Shown: positions 21,954-39,386 of the stretch, piece by piece
Layout: each line of letters opens with the position of its first letter
Numbering within the stretch: position 1 is the stretch's first letter
Assembly: GCF_000245735.1 (NCBI RefSeq)
Contig: NZ_AHTH01000005.1
Span: 186,001-250,000, forward strand
Length of the DNA stretch: 64,000 bases
Direction of reading: 5' to 3'
DNA from: Alishewanella jeotgali KCTC 22429
GTDB taxonomy: Bacteria; Pseudomonadota; Gammaproteobacteria; Enterobacterales; Alteromonadaceae
Notes under the pieces: generated by a model
The model's database searches: none
The model's input: the letters and a program-made list of their open reading frames with translations, nothing else
Told to the model about the DNA's origin: nothing
Position numbers and translations under genes: made by a program

Positions 21954-24785
21954 TTAAAGCGTTGCAATAGCTGCTATCGCCACCGCACTGTTGTATATAA
22001 TTTGCGTTGCAGTGGCCCAAATGGTTAAGCCATCTTTGTATTCGGTATTTAACGGCACCACTATGGTATCGCCGGCTTCTAAACGGTTGCGGTTAATGGC
22101 AAACCAACTGCTGCTGCGGCTCATTACACTGCCATCGGCTTTAATTACATATACCGCTTTTTGATCGGCCCGTTGTTTAAAGCCACCGGCACGGTTTAAA
22201 TAATCTTGTACGCTTAACCCCGCCGTAAATACATGGCTGGACGGGTTATGCACCTCGCCAATAATACTGATGGCGTTACGCCTCTGCGGTACAAAAATTT
22301 CGTCACCGTCTTCCAATTGAATATTCTGGCCGCGCACCCCCGCCAAAGCCGAGTTCATATCAATTACCAAGCGGCCAATAGCTTCGGCTTCGTTAAGTTT
22401 GGCTGCCAGTTCTTCGGCTTCGGCAATAGAGGGGCCTGTTGTACCCACAGTTGCCGATTGGGCAGCTAACTGCTGTTGTAAACTCAGCCGTAATGCATCC
22501 AGTTGTTTGCGCTCGTTTTCACGAATACTGGCACGGCTAAATACTGCAGCCTCGGGATGCGCCTGGGTGGTAAAGCCACCAGCCCGGTTTATTACATCGG
22601 CCAGGCGTTCGCCCTTTTTAATGGTATAAGTCCCTGGAAACTTAACCTCACCAACCAACCGAACGGTATTGGTTTCGCGCCAATCCGGAATGCGCTTAAT
22701 TTGTAATGTATCAAGCGGGCTTAGGGCAGTAACACTGGCGTTATCCAGAGCTAATGCCCGGTGTTCCGTGCTGAATACGGCGCTACCGTCGGTACTGCGC
22801 CGGGTTAGCTCTGCCGTTACCGCATAGCTGGACTCACGAAAGCCACCGGCTACATCAATAAGTTGTTGTGCCGTCATGCCCGACGTTAAGGGGTAACGCC
22901 CCGGAAAACGCACATCACCTTCTATGTTAACAACCAGTTGTGGGGTTTCTTTGTCGGCTTGCTGCGTTAACTTGTTAATTAGCCCTGCTACCACGGGTTC
23001 GCGCGGTTCTACCATAGAAAACACATGCAAGGTATCCAGCTCTTGCAGTGGTAAGGCCAAATCTTGTGGGCTAGCCAAAGACACTACTTGTACACTGGTT
23101 TTAACCGTAGCACTGTTAAAGCGTGAAATCAGGGCGTAGTTTTTGTCGGCAAATTGGTCCAGATCAAAGCCGGCCTTTAACAAATCGGCCAGTGTCATGC
23201 CTTTAGTTAGCGGATAATTACCGTTAAAACGGCTAAAGCCAACTATCGACACTACTTTGGGCGGTTGTAAAAAGCGGGCTTGGTTACGTAACTCAGCTAT
23301 TAGCCCTTGTAACCGCTCGGTACGATCTTCGTTAGCACCAAACAGAAAAAGTTTGTCGCGCGGCTGCAGTAACAGGTTGGCCGCCGAACCCGGCTGGGTA
23401 ATGGCCAACGCCGGGTTAAAGGCAATAACTTCAATTTCCCGGGTTGGATACACTTCGCGCCGAATAATGCCGTAGTTTAGGTCCGGGTTTGGTAGCAGTT
23501 CACGCATGTCAGGCAGAACGTCGGAAATACGCATACCTTCCCGCCAGCCAAAGCCACCTGGGCGGTGCACATGCCCGGTAAGTTGCACAATATTTTCAAT
23601 TTGATCCAGCACTGAATACACTTCAAGAATATCGCCCTGGCGTAACGTTGTGGCTTTGCCAGCGGCCTGGGTCAGGTCGATATCTTTCAGCATTTTTGCG
23701 CCGTTGGCATCAATGCGCTCTAACCGTGATACTGCCGGAAAGGCGGTAGGTAAAAAACCACCCGCCAGGCGCACGATATCGTCTGCCGTTCTTTCATTTT
23801 TTAGTTCGTAAATGGCCGGGCGCAGCACTTCACCACCAATACCCACTGTGCGCTCAATAGTAGGGATAAACACTACGTCTCCCGGCTGTAACATAATATC
23901 GGCCGAGGTATCACCGCGTAGGAGTAAATTATATAAGTCGAGTTGGGCTACAGTTTTGCCGCTGCGCTTTATTTCAATATTACGCAGTGAACCAATTTTT
24001 TTAACACCACCGGCTGCCATAATGGCGTGTGTTGCGGTAGACAGCGAGCTGATAGTGTAAGCACCAGGCTGGAAGGCTTCGCCCAGCACAAATACGCGAA
24101 TAGAGCGCAGTTCACCCATGGTTACGTTTAGCTGGTTACCGATCATTTGCTGCTGCACTACAGTAGCCAGATTTTGTCGCAATTCACTAAAGGTTAAACC
24201 GGCCACCATAATGGGGCCAATGCCGGGGAAGAATATTTGGCCGTTGCGGTCTACGTTCAGCTCTTGCTGAATGTTTTCTTTACCATAGAGTTGAATACGA
24301 ATACTGTCGCCTGGCCCTACAATGTAGTCTGTTGGCACCGGAATATCCGATACCGGGGCAAAAGTGCTGGGCGTACCGGCAAACAGGTCGTAACCGAATT
24401 GCTTAAGGTTTTGCCGTAAGTTGCGGGCTTTTTGTGTCGGTTTAGCGGCTTTATCGCCATTTTCGGCTTTATCTACATTTGCCGTAGCTCGTTCAATAGT
24501 ATTATTCCACTGCTCTGCTTGTTCGCTTTGCGGACGTCGCGGTGTGGTTAACTCTTGCAAACTGGGGGCAGGTTGCATTGGTGTGGCTACTGCCGGGCCA
24601 GTAAGTTGCGATAAGTCAACACCATACTGCGCAGCAATGGCTTCTTGCTGGGCTCGGGGAAGTTGTTTAAATTGCTCAATTTGTGCCGCAGTAATTTGCT
24701 GTGCCATAGCACCGGCGCTGAGAAATACTCCCAGGGTGCAGGCCGCAATGGCGCGGAAAAGACTCTTTGACAACCTCATTAACAT
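21954..24785 (-). CDS. wza: Wza-type outer-membrane polysaccharide export protein with multiple SLBB domains
   Basis: 943 residues. A signal peptide ends near ALA-like SAGAMA-QQ (about residue 28) and there is no lipobox in the right place, so it is probably not a lipoprotein. The Poly_export domain starts near 150 (PVPTDYIVGPGDSIRIQLYG). Several SLBB domains follow, each marked by phrases such as RVFVLGEAFQPGAYTISSLS, GIGGEVLRPAIYEL, LTGHVHRPGGFGW, VNIEGDVRFPGRYPL, LVGEVKFPGTYTIKKG and IIGEVHNPSSHVFTAG. A C-terminal hydrophobic end is near 925. Much longer than E. coli Wza (about 380). It is the first gene after the ops leader, so RfaH should act here. Confidence 0.93.
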   Translation of the reverse strand: MLMRLSKSLFRAIAACTLGVFLSAGAMAQQITAAQIEQFKQLPRAQQEAIAAQYGVDLSQLTGPAVATPMQPAPSLQELTTPRRPQSEQAEQWNNTIERATANVDKAENGDKAAKPTQKARNLRQNLKQFGYDLFAGTPSTFAPVSDIPVPTDYIVGPGDSIRIQLYGKENIQQELNVDRNGQIFFPGIGPIMVAGLTFSELRQNLATVVQQQMIGNQLNVTMGELRSIRVFVLGEAFQPGAYTISSLSTATHAIMAAGGVKKIGSLRNIEIKRSGKTVAQLDLYNLLLRGDTSADIMLQPGDVVFIPTIERTVGIGGEVLRPAIYELKNERTADDIVRLAGGFLPTAFPAVSRLERIDANGAKMLKDIDLTQAAGKATTLRQGDILEVYSVLDQIENIVQLTGHVHRPGGFGWREGMRISDVLPDMRELLPNPDLNYGIIRREVYPTREIEVIAFNPALAITQPGSAANLLLQPRDKLFLFGANEDRTERLQGLIAELRNQARFLQPPKVVSIVGFSRFNGNYPLTKGMTLADLLKAGFDLDQFADKNYALISRFNSATVKTSVQVVSLASPQDLALPLQELDTLHVFSMVEPREPVVAGLINKLTQQADKETPQLVVNIEGDVRFPGRYPLTSGMTAQQLIDVAGGFRESSYAVTAELTRRSTDGSAVFSTEHRALALDNASVTALSPLDTLQIKRIPDWRETNTVRLVGEVKFPGTYTIKKGERLADVINRAGGFTTQAHPEAAVFSRASIRENERKQLDALRLSLQQQLAAQSATVGTTGPSIAEAEELAAKLNEAEAIGRLVIDMNSALAGVRGQNIQLEDGDEIFVPQRRNAISIIGEVHNPSSHVFTAGLSVQDYLNRAGGFKQRADQKAVYVIKADGSVMSRSSSWFAINRNRLEAGDTIVVPLNTEYKDGLTIWATATQIIYNSAVAIAAIATL

Positions 24786-38599: not shown

Positions 38600-38790
38600 C
38601 GTCTGGATAAGCGCATCCGGCGGCAAGCACACCGTGCAACTTTGACGGGACACGCTGTGGATACATCCCTAACGGTTACAAACTTCATCCATGAAGTTTG
38701 CCCTGCGGGCCAGCTAAAGCTGTTCAAATTTGCTCCCGGCAAATTTGTGTCATTTTTCATCCCTGAAAAATACATTCCCTTACAAAGTGC
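38600..38790 (-). repeat. Structured intergenic repeat with serial hairpins
   Basis: Three perfect small hairpins follow each other: CAAACTTCAT/ATGAAGTTTG with loop CC (38679-38700), CAAATTTGC/GCAAATTTG with loop tcccg (38725-38747), and ATTTTTCA/TGAAAAAT with loop tccc (38752-38771). Read on the reverse strand, the first hairpin is followed by GGGATGTAT and ACAGCGT. The same order (CATGGATG hairpin, GGGATGTATTTACGGCGT) recurs in the two forward copies at 38982 and 39199. Part of the 1.1-kb gene-free gap between pcaD and benK. Confidence 0.7.
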
Positions 38791-38981
38791 ACGGAATGCT
38801 TACCACCTCGTTCAATATCATACTGCCAAGCGTTCTTGGGCATTATGACTATAGCATCTGCCTGCTCGCTTCAGCCGGATTGGCTGGTTATTAACAACAT
38901 CGAGGTTGACTTAAAATATACTTACAGAAAGTAAAAAAACCAACTGAGCTATATAGAACTATGAGAAAGTTTTTCGACTGA

Positions 38982-39165
38982 TGTTGCAAGTAACACCTTT
39001 GTAGCCAGGCAGCGAGCCGATATTGCTAAACAAAGCGTGTACGGCATGGATGCCGGACAGGAGCCTACAGGGATGTATTTACGGCGTCTTTGTGTGCAAT
39101 ATCGGCTGGTAGCAGCCTGGCGGTTCGATTCAGATGCTCTGTCAGGCAGCGAAAAACTTCAGTGA
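38982..39165 (+). repeat. Intergenic repeat element, copy 1
   Basis: About 184 bases, repeated 217 bases further on. It has an outer inverted repeat (GCCAGGCAGCGAGCCGATA- at 39004 against -TATCGGCTGGTAGCAGCCTGGC ending 39121), an inner CAAAGCGT/ACGGCGTCTTTG pairing, and a central hairpin CGGCATGGATGCCG (39042-39055). No protein-coding potential is seen. Function unknown. Confidence 0.85.
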
Positions 39166-39198
39166 GCTAAATCCAACTCCGGGGAAACTCTCAAATGG

Positions 39199-39386
39199 TG
39201 TCGCAAGTAGCGCCTTTGCAGCCAGGCAGCGAGCCGATATTGCTAAGCAAAGCGTCTTTCGCATGGATGCGAAAGAGGAGCCCCCACGGATGGGTTCACG
39301 GCGTCTTTGCGTGCAATATCGGCTGGTAGCAGCCTGGCGGTTCGGTTCAAATGTTCTGGCAGACAGCGATGAAACTTATACAGTGG
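39199..39386 (+). repeat. Intergenic repeat element, copy 2
   Basis: Same layout as copy 1, with outer and inner inverted repeats conserved. The central hairpin stem differs in sequence but still pairs: TCTTTCGCAT with ATGCGAAAGA around GG (39255-39276). Most differences from copy 1 lie in the central loop; the arms are nearly identical. Not coding. Confidence 0.85.

Follow-up and report, generated by a model that had tools for sequence, protein, structure and literature searches.

ANGGA is the recognition motif of the global post-transcriptional regulator CsrA/RsmA, and the decoy RNAs CsrB, CsrC, RsmY and RsmZ are encoded by single loci with their own promoters. Among dispersed palindromes, REPs measure 20–40 nt and have conserved stems and a GTAG/CGTC foot, and YPAL repeats were reportedly described in the original paper as inserting near gene 3′ ends. 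A review presents YPAL as mobile repeats of ∼168 bp that contain internal inverted repeats, duplicate 3–26 bp of the target at sites spanning or adjoining dyad symmetry, and possibly influence RNA stability (PMC2229807, in excerpt). Y. pestis carries 43 copies and Y. enterocolitica 144 (PMC2847712, in excerpt), and the sequence of RU-2/YPAL is given in Table 1b of PMC2759123 (in excerpt). Two Rfam families are also close: TwoAYGGAY (RF01731), a type with GGA loops that was proposed as a CsrA-binding RNA with validation work in progress (PMC4333381, in excerpt; ANGGA itself is named in PMC9788540, in excerpt), and Ysr224 (RF02770), an annotated Yersinia sRNA found in a top list of sRNA counts across bacteria (PMC9029176, in excerpt). 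The definition of REPs by a GTAG or CGTC motif at the base of a palindrome of 20–40 nt draws in part on PMC3733652 (abstract).

The window, by which we mean the whole 64-kb stretch of DNA analysed here, carries a cluster of palindromes whose flanking genes we read as one transporter-like and one hydrolase-like. The initial annotation had described three related elements built on CATGGATG/CATCCATG hairpins, each perfectly paired despite differing stems and each accompanied by a tag. Checking the sequence recovered all three hairpins with these properties: CAAACTTCATCCATGAAGTTTG at 38679–38700 (GGA strand –), CGGCATGGATGCCG at 39042–39055 (+) and TCTTTCGCATGGATGCGAAAGA at 39255–39276 (+). They are not independent copies, however, since two form a tandem pair (38974–39152 and 39191–39369, + strand, ∼179 nt each, 84% identical, spacing 217 nt) and the third belongs to a separate composite element of ∼200 nt with several hairpins at about 38611–38812 on the – strand. 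A tag-like stretch does lie beside each hairpin: one is exact (39070–39087, +), one has three mismatches (38652–38669, –) and the one of copy 2, CGGATGGGTTCACGGCGT at 39287–39304, is more diverged and beyond the reach of a 3-mismatch search. The tag is part of a second GGA-loop hairpin, namely hairpin B plus its 3′ side. The features are as follows.

38611–38812, – strand: composite element with arms GCATCCGGCGG...CCACCTCGTT, from the sequence, ends set by eye; GGA-loop hairpins on –
38652–38669, – strand: diverged tag or weak second hairpin GGGATGTATCCACAGCGT, an inverted repeat with three mismatches to the tag
38679–38700, – strand: perfect hairpin CAAACTTCA-TGGA-TGAAGTTTG, the third element of the initial annotation
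38725–38747, – strand: perfect hairpin CAAATTTGC-CGGGA-GCAAATTTG, GGA loop
38752–38771, – strand: perfect hairpin ATTTTTCA-GGGA-TGAAAAAT, GGA loop
38974–39152, + strand: tandem copy 1, a long hairpin with outer arms GCCAGGC / AGCCGATATTGC, from repeat comparison and fold
39042–39055, + strand: copy 1 hairpin A, CGGCA-TGGA-TGCCG, from sequence and fold
39066–39077, + strand: copy 1 hairpin B, TACA-GGGA-TGTA, overlapping the tag, from tag search and fold
39191–39369, + strand: tandem copy 2, sharing 84% identity with copy 1, from repeat comparison and fold
39255–39276, + strand: copy 2 hairpin A, TCTTTCGCA-TGGA-TGCGAAAGA, a perfect hairpin, from sequence and fold
39283–39294, + strand: copy 2 hairpin B, CCCA-CGGA-TGGG, from sequence and fold

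The GGA loops of the three strong hairpins of the composite element all lie on one strand, and in both tandem copies the two ANGGA loops lie 23 nt apart. Our covariance model of the element, R1, matches the cores of copy 1 (39023–39099, 70.1 bits) and copy 2 (39240–39316, 71.7 bits) and weakly a part of the composite element (38643–38712, 14.3 bits, E 0.16).

Within the window, the tag occurrence and the folding energies are well beyond chance. A 3-mismatch tag search gave three matches where 0.03 were expected, one of them (at 22220) away from any element, and folding of the three regions is much more stable than that of their shuffles (z –4.45, –5.04 and –4.39, DNA parameters). By itself, the CATCCATG octamer shows no enrichment there (three occurrences against 1.94 expected; 29 of 100 shuffles reach three). 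When the 64 kb were scanned for perfect hairpins with a stem of at least 7 bp and a loop of 3–6 nt, 23 distinct hairpins were obtained; a GGA loop on one strand was present in four, all of them in the repeat region. Hairpin A of copy 1 has a perfect stem of 5 bp and so falls outside these 23.

The initial annotation did not recognize the family. We compared the published 168-nt RU-2 sequence (PMC2759123, in excerpt) with our sequences by blastn and found 82% identity over 61 bp to window positions 39032–39091 (E 1.2e-9 in a database made of the fetched loci and the window). RU-2 is 86% identical to a copy from Yersinia proxima (L046) and nearly identical (98% over 167 bp) to locus L144. The repeats are thus kin of a described family, an outcome that the initial annotation had itself named as a refutation, and the novelty of the family falls with this match. 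Judged by sequence, we class the window repeats as members of the YPAL/RU-2 kind, apparently a small, dispersed, non-autonomous mobile element. The likeness extends from the core sequence to the length of about 170 nt, the internal inverted repeats, the many intergenic copies and the turnover among close relatives. The outer arms, in contrast, are unlike those of YPAL, there are also composite copies here with several extra GGA hairpins, and the present family is found across many Gammaproteobacteria; CsrA goes unmentioned in those portions of the YPAL literature on which this comparison draws. The resemblance to REP/RAYT systems concerns intergenic palindromes that often occur as inverted pairs, but here the stems vary and the loops are conserved, whereas in REPs it is the stems that are conserved.

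Both Rfam families align with the element, on opposite strands. TwoAYGGAY aligns over its full length to window copy 1 on the GGA strand with 20.7 bits, below the gathering threshold of 43 and, at E 2.5, not significant by itself. Among 20 loci scanned, only L196, from a genome of the same family as the window's, passed the threshold (44.0 against 43); L198 followed with 35.3 bits, and these two were the only loci of the 20 with a TwoAYGGAY match. None of 15 other loci came up to the threshold of any Rfam family. The architecture agrees better: copies of the window type have, in matching order, an outer stem enclosing two hairpins with AYGGAY-type loops, and tandem G·A in the stem, described for TwoAYGGAY (PMC4333381, in excerpt), occurs in 18 of the 88 copies that we aligned (see below). 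Rfam classifies the motif as cis-regulatory, whereas the present copies are clearly a dispersed repeat. Ysr224 aligns to the window copy opposite the GGA strand (27.6 bits against a threshold of 70, E 6e-4) and over the copy in 16 of the 20 loci, always opposite the GGA strand and nowhere at threshold. From these alignments, Ysr224 looks like this very element read from its other strand.

The element is present in many copies. BLAST with copy 1 gave eight matches in the window's genome, including itself and copy 2. Twenty stretches were fetched around CATCCATG, of which ten (L009–L018) are element-like, with several entirely different outer stems, and ten (L019–L028) are ordinary-looking sequence. 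A degenerate pattern built from hairpin B plus the tag and run on named genomes found at least 119 stretches. The 80 matches listed by name are gammaproteobacterial judging by their titles, except two titled only Proteobacteria; among the matches listed are Stenotrophomonas, Xanthomonas, Rheinheimera, Alishewanella, Marinobacter, Microbulbifer, Alteromonas, Shewanella and Yersinia proxima, and one Alishewanella copy (L102) has nearly the outer arms of the window, which suggests that the host is related closely to Rheinheimera/Alishewanella. With R1, copies were found in 57 of 281 gammaproteobacterial genomes; the copy numbers per genome are lower bounds, as at most 16 candidates were scored in each. 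The window's genome has 23 matches at E ≤ 1 and 18 at E ≤ 0.001. In a sample of the phylum, 37 of 396 genomes matched, all from the class of the window (the sample comes without the share of the other classes), and a plasmid collection gave no match to the element. A Saccharophagus MAG (L058, 3121–3736) has four copies on one strand at ∼180-nt spacing, two of which have hairpin A stems made entirely of A/T.

We next consider the structure of the element. The pattern search yielded 133 matches, 127 of full length and 115 after removal of near-identical sequences; we aligned the 88 whose hairpin A carries NGGA at a fixed position. Their consensus is a three-way junction in which hairpin A and hairpin B, the latter closed by GCC/GGC, branch from a long outer stem. 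The fold as first drawn had 28 pairs, 23 of them with double changes; the structure test used 30 pairs in 88 rows (2,621 cells). The proposal that the pairing itself is maintained was strongly supported: 89.9% of the cells pair, against 62.6% in shuffles, 722 cells are double-changed, against 223.5, and the covariation score is 0.660, against 0.169. None of 500 shuffles reached the observed paired fraction, double-change count or covariation score. In a slid control, 33–42% of the cells paired and the score was at most 0.132, but this control leans toward the structure because the structure was drawn from these very sequences. A double change was found in 24 of the 30 pairs, which says little because the shuffles nearly match it (22.1 on average, with 15 of 500 reaching 24). 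The three GCC/GGC pairs are invariant and lie inside the search pattern.

The stems thus covary, and the apical loop of hairpin A is nearly invariant. Hairpin A was left untouched by the search pattern, and GGA is at its apex in 111 of the 115 non-redundant copies (the 88 at the fixed position plus 23 of the 27 others, identified by hairpin scan); the exceptions are L057, L080, L139 and L140. Among the 88, the base before GG is T in 50, G in 31 and A in 7, with a preceding A in 82, which gives the ANGGA motif of CsrA/RsmA, and the stem columns of hairpin A (19–25 and 34–39) have 40–70% identity. The loop of hairpin B, CANGGANG, was fixed by the search pattern, so that its invariance proves nothing. 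Strong hairpins outside the core also tend to have such loops: in 41 fetched loci from the window's genome and genus, all picked for holding elements, 12 of 18 non-core hairpins near elements carry a GGA/TCC loop, compared with 4 of the 42 that lie elsewhere (p 1.5e-5, odds ratio 19). The comparison omits 14 hairpins of the core type, of which 11 are near elements and 3 are not. The 12 are not independent, since several are variants of one hairpin and three come from an array beside csrA. Fourteen such hairpins lie within 230 nt of a tag, nine of them on the tag's strand; within 115 nt, a limit set once the data had been inspected, it is nine of ten.

The mismatches bear on which strand folds. 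Over the outer stem and hairpin A of the 88 copies, G·U outnumbers A·C by 61 to 34 and G·A outnumbers T·C by 94 to 20, counts made up of cells that are not mutually independent. Taken apart, the outer stem has 43 G·U against 19 A·C and 48 G·A against 13 T·C, and hairpin A has 46 G·A against 7 T·C. By row, 32 copies favour G·U and 14 go against it (p 0.011). Hairpin A alone has no G·U excess (18 against 15 A·C, or 18 against 9 without the innermost pair). Hairpin B is reversed, with 1 G·U against 34 A·C, 33 of the A·C cells being the innermost pair next to the loop; we read this A and C as unpaired members of a six-base loop, and without the innermost pairs the count is 1 against 1. On balance, these sequence asymmetries lean toward the GGA strand being the one that folds, either as RNA or as single-stranded DNA.

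The genomic context was examined for 220 R1 matches: 20 came from loci of the window's own genome and were left unplaced, and 200 were placed against predicted genes. Eleven of these lie inside a predicted ORF, 41 are without a neighbour and 148 have both neighbours: 50 convergent, 18 divergent, 33 tandem-sense and 47 tandem-antisense. The excess of convergent over divergent contexts (p 1.3e-4, on rough gene calls) locates the copies at gene 3′ ends, as in YPAL. In tandem contexts, the GGA strand is not preferentially sense to the flanking genes (33 sense against 47 antisense, p 0.15), and a cruder ORF test, which dropped 55 copies inside a called ORF, likewise gave no sense bias (upstream gene on the same strand in 29 of 67, downstream gene in 26 of 68). 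The copies in these counts are not fully independent, as some share an intergenic region and one record was fetched twice (L101 and L191 look identical). A simple sense-strand 3′-UTR element of mRNAs is disfavoured by the absence of sense bias in both the ORF test and the codon-model test. Among 42 adjacent pairs less than 500 bp apart, 28 are arranged –,+, seven +,–, five +,+ and two –,–; with mostly inverted pairs, TCC loops would be present in a large part of any transcript.

The site in the window turns over rapidly among close relatives, differing strongly in three of them: G282 has two elements with the GCCAGGC arms of the window in opposite orientation plus a short-form element with the other arms, G288 has a hybrid of the two arm types, and G302 retains a short remnant. 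For a copy elsewhere (L171, C18:246633), the corresponding site is near-empty in both G282 and G281, with 97–98% flank identity and, by eye at this single site, a possible AACCAWATTG duplication of ∼10 bp; G288 is also without an element there (flanks 77–81% identical), and G309 has a different one. Foldback copying, which the initial annotation had raised as a source of the stems, finds no support at the L171 site: both outer arms are absent along with the core, as if the arms travel with it. This argument from one site is weak and does not settle where the arms come from. No clean empties were obtained at the L170 and L165 sites, the L164 site was unalignable for L250, and the alignment for L254 was poor.

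To account for these repeats, we lean toward a mobile YPAL-type repeat whose GGA strand, when transcribed, would form a three-way junction with CsrA/RsmA-bound loops that act as decoys or 3′-end elements. Such an RNA would present two ANGGA loops, and more in composite copies; a CsrA/RsmA dimer could bind the paired loops, and the copies might then serve as decoys or as CsrA-dependent 3′-end elements. Selection for the fold would keep the stems paired while their sequence drifts. Transcription of the copies, CsrA binding and its effect are what we infer here. More tentatively, the paired CsrA/RsmA sites of this mobile repeat may make up a distributed, evolving set of decoys or targets, with YPAL, Ysr224 and TwoAYGGAY as facets of one element. 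Like CsrB, CsrC, RsmY and RsmZ, the copies have several GGA-loop hairpins on one strand, a feature of decoy RNAs, but those decoys are single loci and the present repeats are dispersed copies in both orientations. The window's genome encodes a CsrA that, over 57 residues, is nearly identical to the carbon storage regulator of solved structure 1y00. It also has a CsrB-like locus (L217, G000 C28:43590–43904, –) that scores 31.3 bits, below Rfam's 71, and contains 17 GGA in 316 nt, five of them as CAGGATG; this is probably the organism's CsrB. csrA is present in 56 of 57 genomes with copies and in 193 of 224 without (Fisher p 0.009), but we give this association little weight, since kinship and genome reduction confound it; in G157, which has copies, csrA was not found. 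The lack of sense bias, the inverted pairs, the opposite strand of Ysr224, the non-significant TwoAYGGAY match of the window, the csrA-less result for G157 and the mismatch patterns of hairpins A and B count against CsrA, and we know of no role of the conserved GAGCC and TTYACGGCG in CsrA binding.

The chief rival to the CsrA reading is a purely selfish DNA repeat, with pairing and GGA loops serving mobility only, as single-stranded hairpins for a transposase or recombinase. The strand signature would suit single-stranded DNA as well as RNA, and the patchy, dispersed copies (57 of 281 genomes), the inverted pairs without sense bias, the preference for convergent gene ends (50 against 18 divergent), the rearranged window site with one near-empty site elsewhere, and the target duplications of 3–26 bp reported for YPAL (PMC2229807, in excerpt) all speak for such a repeat. 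A mobility enzyme, however, would be expected to read a conserved stem sequence, whereas the stems here vary and GGA recurs in other hairpins, and we consider this explanation rather unlikely. A search of the window's genome for Y1 transposases (PF01797) gave one match (G000 C61:175391–175714), ∼10 kb before the window. The combination of strand-asymmetric mismatches with the lack of sense bias could also reflect a SINE-like element, whose GGA-strand RNA folds for reverse transcription and insertion, so that the strand is selected without orientation bias; the variable target duplications of YPAL (PMC2229807, in excerpt) would fit, and we nevertheless judge it very improbable.

Location at gene 3′ ends would further agree with a cis-acting 3′-UTR hairpin that works without CsrA, stabilizing the mRNA upstream or terminating transcription, a role suggested for YPAL in Yersinia, but a plain stability hairpin has no need of GGA loops, which makes this improbable to us. 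Least credible of all are integron attC sites or cassette debris, suggested by the long imperfect palindromes and by an uninterrupted integron integrase (G000 C45:9931–10875) in a genome that also has two interrupted copies of equal score (C11 and C19). The repeat-rich contigs C12 and C13, whose clusters had raised this suspicion, carry catabolic genes and no cassette array: ORF listing and family matches identified methylmalonate-semialdehyde and 3-hydroxyisobutyrate dehydrogenases, hydroxymethylglutaryl-CoA lyase and 3-oxoacid CoA-transferase, and attC arrays were rejected there on this ground. The window copies, with the transporter-like and hydrolase-like genes on their flanks, do not lie in a gene-cassette array either.

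If the CsrA reading is true, a mobile element is spreading the sites at which a global post-transcriptional regulator binds, and repeat dynamics would be tied to the control of carbon, motility and biofilm. It would offer a mechanism for the suggested effect of YPAL on RNA stability and give the Rfam motif TwoAYGGAY a repeat origin. Counts of the Ysr224 "sRNA" across bacteria (PMC9029176, in excerpt) may partly count a repeat. In the literature searched, which covered few subscription papers, no paper joining YPAL with CsrA, Ysr224 or TwoAYGGAY was found; nothing relevant was among the matches listed for the octamer and tag strings, no paper on the present repeats was among those listed for CsrA and repeats, and none on repetitive palindromic sequences in Rheinheimera was found. 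Relative to that literature, the breadth of the family, its composite form with multiple hairpins, the evidence of covariation and the connection of YPAL with Ysr224, TwoAYGGAY and CsrA seem to be new.

Two further arrangements were observed in the window's genome. Downstream of csrA and three tRNA genes, and on the csrA strand, lies an array of repeated GGA-loop hairpins, GGCGGCAGGATAGCCGCC and AAATTGTCTGGAACAATTT (L213, 1480–1760, G000 C21); two repeat elements come after this array, which may be a further one of the CsrA type. On C12 and C13 (L034 and L035), a second repeat class with AACGCCCTTAGCTGGG...CCAAGGGCTTAAC arms, also with CATCCATG hairpins, adjoins copies of the first class.
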